A stretch of DNA of 57,328 nt, taken from Elusimicrobiota bacterium. Its GTDB lineage: Bacteria > Elusimicrobiota > Elusimicrobia > Elusimicrobiales > UBA9959. Under the pieces are notes generated by a model that worked only from the letters and a program-made list of their open reading frames with translations, searched no databases and was not told the DNA's origin. Position 1 is the first letter of the stretch; every line of letters starts with the position of its first letter. A program made the position numbers and the translations under genes. Shown here piece after piece: positions 8,693 through 55,511 of this stretch. Where the stretch lies: positions 64,001 to 121,328 of the forward strand of contig JAAYVI010000117.1 of assembly GCA_012517235.1 (NCBI GenBank), read 5' to 3'.

Positions 8693-10519
8693 TTACAGGA
8701 AAGAACCGAAAAATATTCTTTTCTTTCCCGCTTTTTCTCCGTTTTTAAAGTTTTTTTCAAAAACATAAAAAAATTTTTTAATTAACGATATCTCTCTTAC
8801 ATATCCGCAATCCATAGTAGCTTCGATTATGTTTCCTTTTCCCGAGTAAATCATTACATGATCTATTTCATTCTCATTTTTAAGAGAAGAAAATATTAAA
8901 TCTCCTTCTTTTATGTCTTTTAAATTTTTTTTGCGGCAGGCAAAATATTGGTCTCTGGCGTTTCTCGGTATTTCTATCCCGGCGCAGATGTAAGAAAGAT
9001 AAGAAAGTCCGGAACAGTCGGCCCCATATGCGCTTTTGCCTCCCCATACGTATTTGTCGCCCAAAAAACTTTTCGCCGTTTTTAATATCGCTTTACGCGC
9101 CGCGGCTTGCTTAGTCGGTTTTGATAAAAGTATTAAATCTTTTTTCTTTAATATTAAAAATTTGCCGGAAGTCCTTGCTATGGCAAATCCTAACTTAGGC
9201 TCGTGTAAAACTTCGACTCTCGAACCCAAAGATATTTTTTCGCCGCTTTTTTTAAAATTGCTTTCGTATATGTCGGCTTTTTTTTCTGTTACGGCGGCAT
9301 TAGGAAATTCCGGAAGGCAAAAGTCCAATTTGTCGACATATCCTTCATAAGAAAAAAGTTTTTTCCCTTTTAATGTTTTTTGGTTTTCCGCTTTTATTTT
9401 GAAAGGCTTTTTTTTATTTGTTAAATATATTTTTTCCCCGGGTAGGATTTGAGTCTCTATTTTTTTTAGGGAGATATCCGAATATAAAGAAGAAAAAGGA
9501 TAATGAGGCGCCGCGAGAGAAAGCGGATCTTTTGCTATTATGTAACAAGTGCCGAATTTATTTTTAAGCCAGGCGTTTTCAAAATCCTTTCTAAAATAAA
9601 TAATCTCCGTATATTTGTCTTTAATAGCCGCCGGATCGGCCGTTATGACATTTCCTTTTTCGTCAAATCCCTTTATCGTAAGCAAATGGCCTTTTGTTTT
9701 TTTAAGCGGAGAATTCCTCAGTTCTCCTTCAAAGAATGTAAGGCTTGCTATTACCGGTATTCCTTTTTGCAAAAAAGATTTTGATTCTTCCAGACTGTTA
9801 AGTCTGGCTACGAAGGCATATAATCCTTGGGCGGAAGCGTAAGCGGTATTAAAAAGCCAATTTCCGAAAATACCGTCGGCTTGATCCGAGACCGATTTTG
9901 CTATTTCTTCGGGCTTTTTTCTTATGCCGTAATAATTGAGCACGCAAGAAACGCAGGTAGGACTGCATATGTCTTTTGCTTTGTCAAAATCTCTCGCCAT
10001 TTGAGAAATTCCTTTTAATTTAAGAAAGACTTTTTCTTGAGGGTATAATAATTTTTTTTCTTTTATAAAGGGAAGCGAAGAGTCGCTAAAGACAAAGTTT
10101 GCGGTTTTTATTTTTGCTTTCTTGTCTTTTAAAGGGCGTATTTCTATTTTTACCGATATCTCGGAAATTTTTTCCGAAAGTCTAAGTATGTCGGAGTCCA
10201 TTATGCCTATTTTTGAAATCTTAGATTTGCTTTCGGAATTGCCTTCCAAAAAACTTCCGAAAGAAAATTCTTCTCCTCTTATGTTTACGAAAGTTTCCGT
10301 TTCGGCGTTTCCGTCCGAGTTTACGGAACATATAACTTCGTTAAAAGGAATCGGAGTTTTTATATTAAAAAAAACATAAGAATTTCTTGACGGATCTTTT
10401 ATTTCCAAAAGACCTTCCGGAAAACTTAAAAGATTTAAATTTTCAAGTCTTAAACTCTCTAAATTAGAAAAATCTGTTATAAAGAAATTTAAGGATCTAA
10501 AATTTTTTTCTCTACGCAT
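8693..10519 (-). CDS. C39-like peptidase and NlpC/P60 endopeptidase fusion
   Basis: 608 residues. An N-terminal region of ~165 residues is unrecognised. Next comes a peptidase C39-type domain (about 175-330) with Cys in CSPTCVSCVLNYYG, His in KGHLLTIKGF and an Asp in ITADPA. An SH3-like segment precedes an NlpC/P60 domain (about 485-590) with GADCSGLS and DHVMIYSG, the Cys-His pair that cleaves D-Glu/diaminopimelate links in peptide stems. No signal peptide is apparent at the chosen start (ATG at 10519 after AGAGG). The tail is lysine-rich. It lies 13 nt upstream of gapN. The combination of two papain-fold domains suggests cell-wall peptide processing; the target is not known. Confidence 0.8.
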   Translation of the reverse strand: MRREKNFRSLNFFITDFSNLESLRLENLNLLSFPEGLLEIKDPSRNSYVFFNIKTPIPFNEVICSVNSDGNAETETFVNIRGEEFSFGSFLEGNSESKSKISKIGIMDSDILRLSEKISEISVKIEIRPLKDKKAKIKTANFVFSDSSLPFIKEKKLLYPQEKVFLKLKGISQMARDFDKAKDICSPTCVSCVLNYYGIRKKPEEIAKSVSDQADGIFGNWLFNTAYASAQGLYAFVARLNSLEESKSFLQKGIPVIASLTFFEGELRNSPLKKTKGHLLTIKGFDEKGNVITADPAAIKDKYTEIIYFRKDFENAWLKNKFGTCYIIAKDPLSLAAPHYPFSSLYSDISLKKIETQILPGEKIYLTNKKKPFKIKAENQKTLKGKKLFSYEGYVDKLDFCLPEFPNAAVTEKKADIYESNFKKSGEKISLGSRVEVLHEPKLGFAIARTSGKFLILKKKDLILLSKPTKQAAARKAILKTAKSFLGDKYVWGGKSAYGADCSGLSYLSYICAGIEIPRNARDQYFACRKKNLKDIKEGDLIFSSLKNENEIDHVMIYSGKGNIIEATMDCGYVREISLIKKFFYVFEKNFKNGEKAGKKRIFFGSFL

Positions 10520-12052: not shown

Positions 12053-13057
12053 TCAAATATTTATTTTGGATACGCAGCATTGATAGCAAATAGGGAGTTT
12101 ACCTTTTTGCGCTTCTTCTTTTATTTTCTTTGCTTTTTCTTGAGTTCTGTTTAAAATATCTTTTATTCCTTCTTTTCTTATGTCGCCGGCTATCCAACCG
12201 ACGGCCATGGGACATAATAATACCTTCCCCGAAGGAGTTATTACCAAATCTTGACCTATGAAAGAACATACGGCGTTTTTTTTGCCTTCAAGAATCGGTT
12301 CCGTTTCTACTTTCATTGTAAATTTCGAAGATTTTATTTTACGTATTGTTTTTGATATTTTTTCTATTTGCGCGCGGTTTAAAGAATTTGAATTAAAATA
12401 AGAATGTATGTCGCCTGCTTCAAAACCTAAAATTTCGGACGCTTTTTTTAAAATTTCCGAATTTAGCGAGCTTGCCGATTGAAATCTAAGCAAATTGGCG
12501 TTGAAAGACAAGGCGTTTTTCCAGACTTGTTCCGCATATTTATAGTTGAGTTTGCTTAATGTGCAGTATATGTAAATTTTGGGTAATTTTTTTTTATTTA
12601 AATTTTTAAGCTTTCTAAACAGTAAAATATTTTCCCTAAGCGCCCAAAAAGTTCCTTTTTTGCCTCTAATATAATCGTGTATGTTTTCCGGACCGTCCAG
12701 GGAAAAAACAATAGTGTTAAATAACTCTTGAGAAACTATTTTTTCTATATCTTTATCGCTTAAAGCCGTGCCGTTTGTTACCGCAGCCGTTTCCAATCCG
12801 CATTTTTTTGCGCTTTTGGCCAAATCTAAAATATCCTTATTTAAAAAAGGTTCTCCGCCTATGTACGATATTCTTTTTATCCCGTATTCTTTTAATTCTT
12901 TTTGTATTTTTTCTATTTCCGCCGGCGTTAAAAGGTCTTTCTCTTCGGCTCTAAGTTTTCTATAATCTTTTTTCCAGAGGCCGCAGTTTTGGCATTTGAG
13001 ATTACATATATAGGGCAGTTCGATTATGGCCCTTTTAGGCAAAAATGTCTCGCTCAT
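12053..13057 (-). CDS. Radical SAM protein with SPASM/twitch-like C-terminus
   Basis: 334 residues from ATG 13057 (an alternative ATG lies at 13075; neither has a strong ribosome binding site). The radical SAM cluster motif is CNLKCQNC (Cx3Cx2C, about 20-27), followed by SYIGGEPFLNKDI. The C-terminal part has extra cysteines (AVCSF, VLLCPM, ICYQCC), as in SPASM or twitch domains that hold a second cluster. Such enzymes modify peptides or sugars. It sits among glycan genes and its end is 1 nt from the methyltransferase's. Its 5' end overlaps that of the divergent GT4 gene, which is unusual. Confidence 0.82.
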   Translation of the reverse strand: MSETFLPKRAIIELPYICNLKCQNCGLWKKDYRKLRAEEKDLLTPAEIEKIQKELKEYGIKRISYIGGEPFLNKDILDLAKSAKKCGLETAAVTNGTALSDKDIEKIVSQELFNTIVFSLDGPENIHDYIRGKKGTFWALRENILLFRKLKNLNKKKLPKIYIYCTLSKLNYKYAEQVWKNALSFNANLLRFQSASSLNSEILKKASEILGFEAGDIHSYFNSNSLNRAQIEKISKTIRKIKSSKFTMKVETEPILEGKKNAVCSFIGQDLVITPSGKVLLCPMAVGWIAGDIRKEGIKDILNRTQEKAKKIKEEAQKGKLPICYQCCVSKINI

Positions 13058-51850: not shown

Positions 51851-52069
51851 ATGGGGAAAAAGATAAAAAAAGAATTGCCGGTTAAAACATCCGAAGAATT
51901 CGAACTTTGGAGAAAAATAGCCCTGTTTTGTTCGTTTTTATTTATAATTGCCGGATTTTACGGCTTAAGTTTGCTTAAAACCGAAGTAAACTCTTCTTAT
52001 ATGTATAATTTGCCGGTATATTTAATTATAATAGGGTATGTAATACCGATTTTTGCTTTGAAATCTTAA
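51851..52069 (+). CDS. Small two-helix membrane protein
   Basis: 72 residues. Preceded by AGGGGGG and 16 nt after the HEAT gene. A charged N-terminus (KKIKKELPVKTSEEFELWRK) is followed by two hydrophobic helices (IALFCSFLFIIAGFYGLSL and YLIIIGYVIPIFALK). No recognised family. Confidence 0.6.
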   Translation: MGKKIKKELPVKTSEEFELWRKIALFCSFLFIIAGFYGLSLLKTEVNSSYMYNLPVYLIIIGYVIPIFALKS

Positions 52070-52766
52070 AATCCCCCAATTTTTGCTTTTATTGCGGATA
52101 ATTCCCCCATTTTTTTGTATATCTTTCGGGATATGCCGATATTTACTTAAGATTTTTAGCTTTTTATCAATAAAAACGGATAAAGAGACGGACTATTGCA
52201 AGTACGGTCCGGGTGTCTTTTAAGACTTCTTTGTTAAAAGATCCGTCCGCTCCTATTTAAACGGTTTTCTTATCCCCATTTTTCTTAATTAGTTTCCCGG
52301 ACTTATCTTAATAGGCATGATTTTAAGGGGGGCTGTAAAATCATAACTTTTAATTTCATTTTTCGGGGTATCTTAATACCCTCCGAATCGTTATACGCGA
52401 TTTTAGCCTTTTTGTTTTTTGAGTTTATTTTGCCTCTTCTTGGGTTTTTTAAAAAAGCCTTATTTTTATCTGTTTGAATACCTTAACTTTGCTTTTTTAC
52501 TTTTAATCTTTTTTAAAAAATCAAAAAAATATTTTTTTCTCTCAATTTTGGCGGGAAAAATAAAGGCTTTATTCTGCTAATTATAAAAATCTATAAAATA
52601 TATCAATTTTTTAATTATTATCATTATTTTATAAGTATTTTTCTAAAATAATTAATATTATTTCCATATATAAGAGGGGAGTTTTGTTTAATTATTAAGT
52701 TAACATAATATTTCTTATCGTAAGTTAATTAGGCATAGCGCATAGGCTTGTCTATTTTGTGTATTT
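52070..52766. other. 697-nt AT-rich non-coding stretch holding a dif-like site
   Basis: The longest gene-free stretch in the window. No ORF over 60 codons with coding-like composition, no tRNA, no rRNA and no terminator of GC type. Runs of A/T, several G runs (52328-52333) and the dif-like site described at 52698-52725. The dif-like site lies near its right end. A weak palindrome GTCTTTTAAGAC occurs near 52215. Confidence 0.7.
52698..52725 (-). other. dif: Putative chromosomal dif site (XerC/XerD recombination site)
   Basis: A 28-bp site on the minus strand: left arm ACTTACGATAA, 6-nt centre GAAATA, right arm TTATGTTAACT. The right arm differs from the E. coli XerD arm TTATGTTAAAT at one position and from B. 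subtilis TTATGTAAACT at one position. The left arm matches the B. subtilis XerC arm ACTTCCTATAA at 9 of 11. The 11-6-11 layout is exact. It lies in a 697-nt gene-free gap, as expected for the replication terminus. XerC/XerD genes are not in the window. Confidence 0.75.
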
Positions 52767-53312
52767 TTAGTTTTTTATTATTTCCAGGGCTTTTAAGTAT
52801 GCGTCTTGAATGCCTTTTTGATTTATCTTATAGGATCTGCTTCTTTTGAATCCGAATGCCGATATTTTATTTTCTTTTATTAAAGACGATAATTCCCTGT
52901 CTATTCTTTCGGCTTTAAGTCCGGATAATTTTAGCCCTTTTGAAAGATTTATTGCGCTTAATTCTTCTATGTTTTTTACGGCTCTTTGAGCGGCCATTAA
53001 TATTAATGCGGCTTCGTAGGGTTTTAACGACGAGGTCTTTTTGATTATATAAGGGATATCTTTGTCGAAAGATACTACCGCTTGCCATATGGATTTTGCT
53101 TCGTTTAGCGCGGTTTCTTGGGGTATGATAGATAAGCCGGCGTTTTGGTTTTCGGTATTATTTGCTTGTGAAAACGGTTCTCTTATGGCCTGTAAAAATG
53201 CTTCTTTTTGATTTAAAACAAAATCTTCGCTGCCTTCCGCTTCAAATTCCGCGCCGGGCGGAAGTTTTATTCTTAGTTTGGCTTTTTTATTGTCATTATT
53301 ATTTACACTCAT
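52767..53312 (-). CDS. Hypothetical protein, next to dif-like site
   Basis: 181 residues from ATG 53312 (a second ATG at 53318 is two codons upstream). Not recognised. The N-terminus is charged and contains a strand pattern KLRIKLPPGAEFEAEG followed by a helix and a Gln/Asn-rich linker (SQANNTENQNAG); the C-terminal ~100 residues are helical with a basic winged-helix-like end (KRSRSYKINQKGI). The promoter at 53319-53347 places the predicted start of transcription at the ATG, so the mRNA may be leaderless. It could be a DNA-binding protein; no evidence beyond that. Confidence 0.65.
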   Translation of the reverse strand: MSVNNNDNKKAKLRIKLPPGAEFEAEGSEDFVLNQKEAFLQAIREPFSQANNTENQNAGLSIIPQETALNEAKSIWQAVVSFDKDIPYIIKKTSSLKPYEAALILMAAQRAVKNIEELSAINLSKGLKLSGLKAERIDRELSSLIKENKISAFGFKRSRSYKINQKGIQDAYLKALEIIKN

Positions 53313-53318
53313 AGCCAT

Positions 53319-53347
53319 ATTCTATCTTATAAACATTTTTATGTCAA
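53319..53347 (-). promoter_or_regulatory. Sigma-70-type promoter predicting a leaderless mRNA
   Basis: On the minus strand: -35 TTGACA at 53347-53342, exactly 17 nt spacer, -10 TAGAAT at 53324-53319. The -10 abuts the ATG at 53318, so transcription would start about 7 nt on, near ATG 53312. No ribosome binding site can exist in that mRNA. Perfect -35 and spacing make the promoter credible. Confidence 0.75.
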
Positions 53348-53597: not shown

Positions 53598-54896
53598 TTA
53601 GAATTTGGCTTTAATTGCCAGGGAAGTCATTTTCACGGTCTTAAGTGAGCCTAATGCTGAATCGGGATTAAAATAAGCATAAACGGCAAATAAACTGAAT
53701 TTTTCGCCCAATTTATATTCCGCTTTAATGTCGATTTCGGTCCCTATCTTGAATGTTCCCGGATTTGATATATTTTCGGCGGCTCTAAATCCTATATAAT
53801 CGACGGAAAATAACATTTTCTTATACGGCCAATCGAAACCGAAATTTATTATATTCAGTCCGCTTATTCCCGATGGAAGGCCGTTTGCGGTATCGGAAGT
53901 TCTAAAAACATCGTATAAAGAAGCGGAAAAAATTTGGCCGAATCCCGATCTGTTTACCCCGTCGTATCTATATCCCAAATCGGCGTAAAAAGCTTTGTTT
54001 TCTTTGGCGTTTGAACCCGAATCTCCCGAAGATTTGCCGTATGAAAGGCGGGTTCTCGTAGGGCCTAAAAGAGGCATATTTTGCTTCCATTGGCCTTTAA
54101 GCAGGAAAGCGTATCCTTTGTATTTTACTTTATTGCCGGTTAAAACTTCGTCGGAAGATCCGCTTTGTATTACATATTCTCCGTCGAAAGCCAGTTGATT
54201 TTTGGACGTAAAATATCTTATGCCGGCAAAATTCTTATTTGAATTTTCGGCCGATAAATTTATTTCTTCGGCCGCGCCGCTTCTTTTTTGATTTAAAAAA
54301 TACGCCTGCCAGGTGCCGTCAAATCCGTTTTGCTGAATATTTAAGCCGTATATTTTGTATATATTATCTTGTTTATTTGTGTCTCTGAATATAAATGTTT
54401 CGGCGGAATTTATCCCCAAATAATCCGTAAAATCAAATCTTAAACCGTCGAAACCTCGTCCGCAGTCCGATAAAACGATGCCTTGCCCCAAAGTGTAACT
54501 TTGTTTGCCGAAATATGCGTTTATTCCTTCTTTATAAAAATTATATACCTTAGCATAAGCCTGATTTATAAAAGGCGAATTTATTTGCGGATAGAAGGAA
54601 AGATTTTCGTTTAAATAGGCCGAATTTACAGTAGAAGATGTTTTATCTACGCCTACGTTTTTAATGCCTACGAATACGTCCATTTTTGAGTTCTCGGCTT
54701 TTTCCAGAACTATTTGTTTTATTACGAAATTTATATAAGTATTATCGCTGTGATAGGAGAAATCTTTTTGTTTATTTTTATATATCAAATTATCGTAGGA
54801 TCTTATATCCGCGTCCACCCCGGCATTTAACTCAAGTTTTAAAGCCCAAGCGCGCGGCGATAAAATAAAAATAAGAGTCAAAATCAAATATTTCAT
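53598..54896 (-). CDS. Outer-membrane beta-barrel protein (porin-like)
   Basis: 432 residues with a signal peptide (LILTLIFILSPRAWA). The rest alternates hydrophobic and polar residues in strand-length runs, with aromatic residues at strand ends, and ends in a terminal Phe (LAIKAKF) as expected for a BAM-assembled barrel. The segment NAYFGKQSYTLGQGIVLSDCGRGFDGLRF resembles alginate-export-type porins. Partner to the porin at 55685-56962, with a REP transposase between them. Substrate unknown. Confidence 0.82.
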   Translation of the reverse strand: MKYLILTLIFILSPRAWALKLELNAGVDADIRSYDNLIYKNKQKDFSYHSDNTYINFVIKQIVLEKAENSKMDVFVGIKNVGVDKTSSTVNSAYLNENLSFYPQINSPFINQAYAKVYNFYKEGINAYFGKQSYTLGQGIVLSDCGRGFDGLRFDFTDYLGINSAETFIFRDTNKQDNIYKIYGLNIQQNGFDGTWQAYFLNQKRSGAAEEINLSAENSNKNFAGIRYFTSKNQLAFDGEYVIQSGSSDEVLTGNKVKYKGYAFLLKGQWKQNMPLLGPTRTRLSYGKSSGDSGSNAKENKAFYADLGYRYDGVNRSGFGQIFSASLYDVFRTSDTANGLPSGISGLNIINFGFDWPYKKMLFSVDYIGFRAAENISNPGTFKIGTEIDIKAEYKLGEKFSLFAVYAYFNPDSALGSLKTVKMTSLAIKAKF

Positions 54897-54914: not shown

Positions 54915-55511
54915 TTATTCGCAGATTAAATCTTTAATCGAGGCCAGCTCTCTTTGATATGATATCCGATCTTCGCAGAAAATTTCATAATCTTTTCCTA
55001 AAACATCAATATGATTTTTAAAAGAACATATGTTTTCTTTTTGGCTTGTAAATTCTCCGTAAGAAGAATGAGGCCAATCTTTGGGATGAGAAGCTAAAAA
55101 GGCCGTAACCGGATTTAAATGAATATATCTTGTAAGGTGTAAAAGATAAGATTCGTTTTTAATATGTATTTTTTTGCTTCTTCCTTGCCATAAAGGCCCG
55201 GCTCTTTTATGTTTTAAATTGAAATATCTCGTATAGCCGTCCAAAAGCTTTGCGCAAAAAGAAGAAATATCTTTTTCGCTTTCTGCATTTATTATCAAAT
55301 GAAAATGAGTAGGCATTAGGACATAAGAAATAATATCTAAAGTCTTTTCGCCTTTTATCTCGTTAATATCATAATCTCGAGCCCAATACATCGAGAATGA
55401 ATATCGCTTTCTAAAAGAATAAAATTTTAAGGCAAAAATAAACCTTTTATAATCCAAATCTTCGTTAAATATCTTATACCCGGCTATACTCTTATTAAAA
55501 ACATGAAACAT
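54915..55511 (-). CDS. REP-associated tyrosine transposase (RAYT, Y1_Tnp)
   Basis: 198 residues. A single-domain HUH/Y1 transposase of the RAYT type: the histidine pair in MPTHFHLIIN (about 87-95), the catalytic Tyr in HLTRYIHLNP (about 128-134), and the RAGPLWQGRSKK block. RAYTs bind and nick REP palindromes; two lie directly 5' of this gene (55523-55555 and 55589-55621). GGGGGAAG precedes the ATG. No IS ends or target duplication are seen, so it is probably a fixed, domesticated gene. Confidence 0.93.
   Translation of the reverse strand: MFHVFNKSIAGYKIFNEDLDYKRFIFALKFYSFRKRYSFSMYWARDYDINEIKGEKTLDIISYVLMPTHFHLIINAESEKDISSFCAKLLDGYTRYFNLKHKRAGPLWQGRSKKIHIKNESYLLHLTRYIHLNPVTAFLASHPKDWPHSSYGEFTSQKENICSFKNHIDVLGKDYEIFCEDRISYQRELASIKDLICE

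Follow-up and report, generated by a model that had tools for sequence, protein, structure and literature searches.

A 28 bp site at positions 52698–52725 (minus strand) of the window, the whole stretch of 57 328 nucleotides analysed here from contig JAAYVI010000117.1 of an Elusimicrobiota draft genome, is very probably the dif site of the chromosome, lying at its replication terminus. Dimer resolution at dif by XerC and XerD under the control of FtsK is established, and the textbook dif is a bare 28 bp site that FtsK controls from outside. The dif site described here is itself ordinary, while the module that surrounds it is new: beside the XerC-side arm lies a gene for a predicted DNA-binding protein with a winged helix, and beside the XerD-side arm an AT-rich element of approximately 125 bp that holds the same register to dif throughout the class Elusimicrobia. 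These conserved flanks suggest, at the level of sequence, an extra and so far undescribed layer of control over dif recombination. Our preferred reading, to which we give a probability of only about 0.4, is that the winged-helix protein and the element act together as an accessory complex, either in Xer recombination or in organizing the terminus.

Read on the minus strand, the site is ACTTACGATAA-GAAATA-TTATGTTAACT, an 11-6-11 layout of XerC-side arm, 6 bp centre and XerD-side arm, exactly as a first-pass annotation of this DNA had given it. It is intergenic, and the gap described there as gene-free does prove to be so, extending over 52070–52766 from the end of an open reading frame of 72 amino acids (52069) to the stop codon of the winged-helix gene (52767–52769). 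With up to three mismatches allowed, the site has no other match in the window (and none in 100 shuffles), and it is likewise single in the whole draft genome (1.94 Mb, 140 contigs, 97% complete), so that the search for a second copy proposed in that annotation returned none. The arms were compared with the experimentally confirmed dif sequences of E. coli and B. subtilis as printed in PMC3025954. The right arm is indeed one base away from each (10/11 in both cases), but for the left arm our recount gives agreement with B. subtilis at 8 of 11 positions and not at the 9 first reported. Together, 18 of the 22 arm bases agree with B. subtilis dif, the top score on the 121 kb contig; when the E. 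coli arms are used for scoring, it no longer ranks first there. Chance matches of this quality had been called very unlikely, which was an overstatement, as the highest score in 40 first-order Markov simulations of the contig was also 18 (mean best score 16.2). The arm match alone, without the relatives, is only suggestive of dif identity, and it is the comparison with relatives that makes the case.

Of the 150 relatives compared, almost all of them members of the window organism's own order, 112 match the site with no more than three arm mismatches, and most of them have one match. The arms are kept among these genomes and the centre differs by group (GATATA, TATATA or TTTTTA), a constant-arm, variable-centre pattern that is expected of a Xer site. 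A dif site had also been predicted for one Elusimicrobia genome examined in PMC3025954. The required machinery is encoded as well: XerD scores 330 bits, above its NCBIfam cut-off, and XerC 333.7 bits, just below its cut-off of 335.15, with both genes on contigs other than that of dif, and there is an FtsK of 766 amino acids whose C-terminal tail is gamma-like by eye. Matches to Pfam FtsK_gamma all fall below the cut-off in this phylum, and none was found in this genome. Both further checks proposed at the outset, a comparison with related genomes and a search for the Xer genes, thus came out in favour of the site being the chromosome's dif, with near-identical single sites within the order and XerC, XerD and FtsK all encoded. 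XerC and XerD would bind the two 11 bp arms and FtsK would switch on XerCD, leading to recombination between the two dif copies of a dimeric chromosome and hence to two monomers at division.

The position of the terminus is best seen in two relatives. The first, G067, is assembled in one contig of 1,643,562 bp and is taken here to be Elusimicrobium minutum Pei191. When GGGGG is counted cumulatively against CCCCC along this contig, the excess is greatest at 916702–917597, and dif, at 917174, lies within approximately 0.5 kb; in G023 the corresponding peak spans 578662–583556 and dif is at 578674. The polarity of GGGGGG reverses likewise at dif in both genomes. On the contig of the window, GGGGG shows the expected polarity to the left of dif (43 forward, 5 reverse), and 1 forward and 3 reverse copies occur in the 4.6 kb to its right. 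The polar G-runs of G067 and G023 are candidate FtsK-orienting polar sequences (KOPS-like) of Elusimicrobiota, and dif would lie where those of the two replichores converge, which is the terminus. Two points count against this placement. The plain GC skew of G067 has its cumulative maximum at 812.6 kb (360 kb read), some 104 kb away from dif at 917.2 kb, and the genome of the window is fragmented, its contig ending 4.6 kb past dif, so that the switch is visible in relatives only. The terminus claim of the first-pass annotation is borne out by G-run polarity in two relatives but not by the plain GC skew, which we set aside as terminus evidence since it is uninformative here and weak in the relatives.

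Further G-run features were seen around dif. GGGGGA and GGGGGG are strongly polar towards it in G067 (119 versus 18 and 84 versus 5, respectively). In loci of the family f2 a box GGGGG..TATTTGTC is conserved shortly ahead of dif, at about −26 to −10, and in those of the family f1 dif is closely followed by CCCC; each amounts to a G-run directed at dif. The idea that contig ends cluster at dif through inserted elements was rejected, as positions in 52 contigs are uniform (Kolmogorov–Smirnov p = 0.83).

The AT-rich element occupies 52573–52697 (minus strand, 13.6% G+C), directly beside the XerD-side arm. It ends in TTAGCAGTC, and its most conserved block is AGATTTTTATAATTAGCAG (52574–52592, minus strand). 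In a gapless alignment anchored on dif, conservation runs from +28 to about +152 in f1, in f2 and in class-level loci, and falls off beyond. Between these groups, the column profiles have zero-shift correlations of 0.42, 0.51 and 0.37, compared with means of 0.01–0.05 (standard deviations 0.07–0.09) at other shifts, while the same between-group test on the left flank of dif gave no clear excess of correlation over the best shifts. The end block AGATTTTnAAAnTTAGCAGTC keeps its place particularly well, with TRGCA starting +145 to +147 from the start of dif in 85 of 110 loci. In the three non-family genomes that match this block at all, the sole match adjoins dif, and the window organism has the copy by dif plus one weaker match elsewhere. 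Within the element there are two related sub-sites, 61 or 62 bp apart in all three groups; as the groups share ancestry, this spacing counts as one observation and not three. An Rfam scan of the gap returned no family at a meaningful score. At one locus (L205, 3600–3740) the element lies downstream of the winged-helix gene, and no dif core is recognizable. The first-pass annotation correctly placed dif in the gap, but missed the conservation on both of its sides.

Some f1 genomes (L082–L096; for example L089:10351 and L083:9915) also contain several sequences that resemble dif, consisting of ACTNACGATAA, a GC-rich centre of 6 bp and TTATGTTTACT, followed by ACAGAT. They often lie downstream of a TATTAT-like box and have no Rfam match. 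We considered such GC-rich-centre sites as secondary dif sites and rejected them, as they are part of a different dispersed sequence (a repeat or leader element).

The winged-helix gene (52767–53318, minus strand) encodes 183 amino acids, and its 3′ end faces dif from a distance of 41 bp. Members of this gene family face dif by the 3′ end, on the XerC-arm side, in 50 of 52 loci, nearly all of them chosen by dif from f1 and f2. When loci were selected by the gene, bringing in other families of the class (f10, f13, f14 and f15), 98 of 105 carried dif on the strand of the gene and downstream of it, at a median distance of 195 bp (quartiles 153 and 329), against a background of 2 chance matches in 832 kb at a dif score of at least 15. 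Among the seven exceptions are several that are truncated at contig ends or interrupted by masked bases, two loci of one genome, and L205. Across several orders of the class the gene lies about 50–330 bp from dif. Phylum-wide it is present in 175 of 341 genomes, nearly always as a single copy, and it is absent from the plasmid and phage collections searched. The order of winged-helix gene, dif and 125 bp element is an old, vertically inherited arrangement. A putative sigma-70-like promoter, TTGACA-17-TAGAAT, stands immediately upstream of the gene (53319–53347, minus strand; 11/12 consensus bases, a consensus match only). One viral contig carries a winged-helix relative near its end, with no dif on the contig.

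The protein has no significant match in Pfam or NCBIfam, no sequence match in the PDB and nothing convincing among viral models. In an alignment of 34 members the motif K-R-K-PSG-EFEAEG marks the N-terminal part, R-DR, G-KR and Y are invariant in the C-terminal half, and a variable linker joins the two. AlphaFold2 modelled the N-terminus as beta-beta-alpha, the linker as disordered and the C-terminus as a winged helix (mean pLDDT, the predicted local distance difference test, 86.5). The possibility that this winged helix is a split-off gamma domain of FtsK was examined and discarded: profile comparison with the gamma-like FtsK tails of this phylum gave a probability of 0.1%, and FtsK retains its gamma-like tail.

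In the accessory role that we favour, the winged-helix protein may bind the element, whose two related sub-sites are spaced by about six helical turns and are found on the side of dif at which XerD binds and FtsK acts as well. Such a complex would help the Xer synapse to form, limit it or fix its place. In favour of a module are the linkage of the gene to dif, the fixed register and internal repeat of the element, and the fact that the element has stayed by dif and not by the gene in G067, in which 12 kb separate the two, and by the gene at L205. More specifically, and still more tentatively, dif of the class Elusimicrobia might be a composite resembling the plasmid site cer: a 28 bp core, approximately 125 bp of accessory DNA with phased sub-sites, and a dedicated winged-helix protein encoded alongside, which would add to FtsK control of XerCD or replace part of it. 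In the open-licence literature we came across no account of a chromosomal dif flanked by a winged-helix gene or by conserved accessory DNA.

Several observations argue against an accessory role. The canonical FtsK–XerCD set is present, so in principle no accessory factor is needed. Foldseek matched the protein only to winged-helix regulators of a generic kind and to proteins that pack DNA or bind centromeres, with E-values of 0.006 or worse. Other genes near dif are conserved too: a gene for an outer-membrane porin-like protein (53598–54896, minus strand), upstream of the winged-helix gene, and one for a small membrane protein are kept within 3 kb of dif in f1 and in other families. In the window the latter place is taken by the open reading frame of 72 amino acids (51851–52069, plus strand), a membrane protein that converges on dif from the other side and resembles, by eye, the small membrane protein found at the same place in many loci of the class. 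With its neighbours conserved as well, the terminus of the class is syntenic, and adjacency to dif proves little on its own. A Y1 (IS200-like) transposase-domain protein is also encoded near dif (54915–55511 in the window).

It is quite conceivable, then, that gene and element have nothing to do with Xer, and that an ordinary regulator has simply stayed by dif because the terminus is syntenic. The porin and small membrane-protein genes, conserved by dif in f1 and in other orders, fit this explanation, as does a protein built like a generic regulator. So does G067, in which the winged-helix gene lies 12 kb upstream of dif. The sister family f2 is harder to reconcile with it. The porin gene belongs to a block that is conserved in the class and mostly lost in f2, where the winged-helix gene is nevertheless by dif in 11 of 12 loci and the porin gene in only 1 of 12. 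From the surroundings of dif, only the winged-helix gene and the flanking element persist in this family, and across f1, f2 and the other families the winged-helix gene is the sole neighbouring gene kept in all three groups. Synteny also gives no account of a non-coding element of 125 bp that has stayed free of insertions and deletions relative to dif.

An unlikely alternative is that protein and element make up a terminus or fork-trap system, similar to RTP/Ter of B. subtilis or MatP/matS of E. coli. RTP, too, is a small winged-helix protein and is encoded next to its own sites, and the end block of the element occurs by dif, hardly elsewhere, and invariably on one side of it. Against this, Pfam links the protein to none of the known terminator or macrodomain proteins, and only one element per genome was seen, while MatP depends on many sites and a fork trap on opposed ones. 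Nor would a spacing to dif that is fixed to within about 1 bp be expected of such a system.

Less likely again is that the element serves as a promoter or encodes a small RNA, and is no protein-binding accessory sequence at all. A TATAAT-like block is conserved in f2 at about +58 from dif, and cer of ColE1 is reported to encode the Rcd RNA (PMC5357621), but there is no Rfam match in the region and no conserved −35 partner by eye, and the element is 86% A+T here, with the genes of both sides converging on it.

That the 28 bp site is not dif but a copy left by a Xer-using mobile element, of the pdif type or an integrative mobile element exploiting Xer (IMEX), is effectively refuted by a site that is single, vertically inherited, in a context conserved across orders and at the convergence of G motifs in relatives, even though a tailed-phage contig (L280) carries the same arms with a different centre and at one locus (L115) a small regulator gene is bracketed by two dif-like sites in inverted orientation. 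The phage contig, IMGVR_UViG_3300029892_000077, was recognized as that of a tailed phage by PHROGs (terminase, portal and major head protein). Its dif-like site, at 12977–13004, has perfect arms and the centre CACACA and comes without the flanking element, making this a candidate for a phage that integrates at dif through the Xer proteins of its host. The two sites at L115, in the genome G107, which lacks the winged-helix gene, are at 9477–9504 and 9970–9997, share the same centre and are about 490 bp apart. They enclose a small regulator-like reading frame and possibly represent a Xer-mobile module at dif.

If an accessory role for the protein and element is correct, the Xer control of plasmids and that of chromosomes would be linked, and the module would offer a means of testing what limits resolution to dimeric chromosomes. 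The dif module should also serve as a reliable terminus marker in a phylum known mostly from fragmented genomes.

The arrangement shares features with several known systems and coincides with none of them. With the chromosomal dif/XerCD–FtsK systems of E. coli and B. subtilis it has in common a single intergenic 28 bp site of 11-6-11 layout at the terminus, XerC, XerD and FtsK, and converging polar G-rich motifs. For other chromosomal dif sites the 28 bp are taken to suffice, whereas in the present case the core is conserved together with some 125 bp of DNA beside it and with the neighbouring winged-helix gene. RTP/Ter of B. subtilis is similar in having a small winged-helix protein encoded at the terminus, but the protein described here has no sequence match to RTP, and no opposed set of sites was seen in this case. 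In XerS/difSL, too, a gene is genetically linked to dif (PMC5357621, PMC2731167); there the linked gene encodes the recombinase, and here it encodes a predicted DNA-binding protein that is not a recombinase. The plasmid sites cer and psi offer the parallel on which the composite proposed above is modelled. The former consists of a core site and accessory DNA bound by PepA and ArgR, and the latter uses PepA and ArcA (PMC5357621). As in the Elusimicrobia, a Xer core stands at a fixed distance beside conserved accessory DNA of the order of 100–200 bp. However, cer and psi are plasmid-borne and dif here is chromosomal and single-copy, and in place of PepA with ArgR or ArcA the candidate protein belongs to another family and is encoded beside the site. 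No Peptidase_M17 match, and hence no protein of the PepA family, was found in the genome, so the module would work like cer without being cer.
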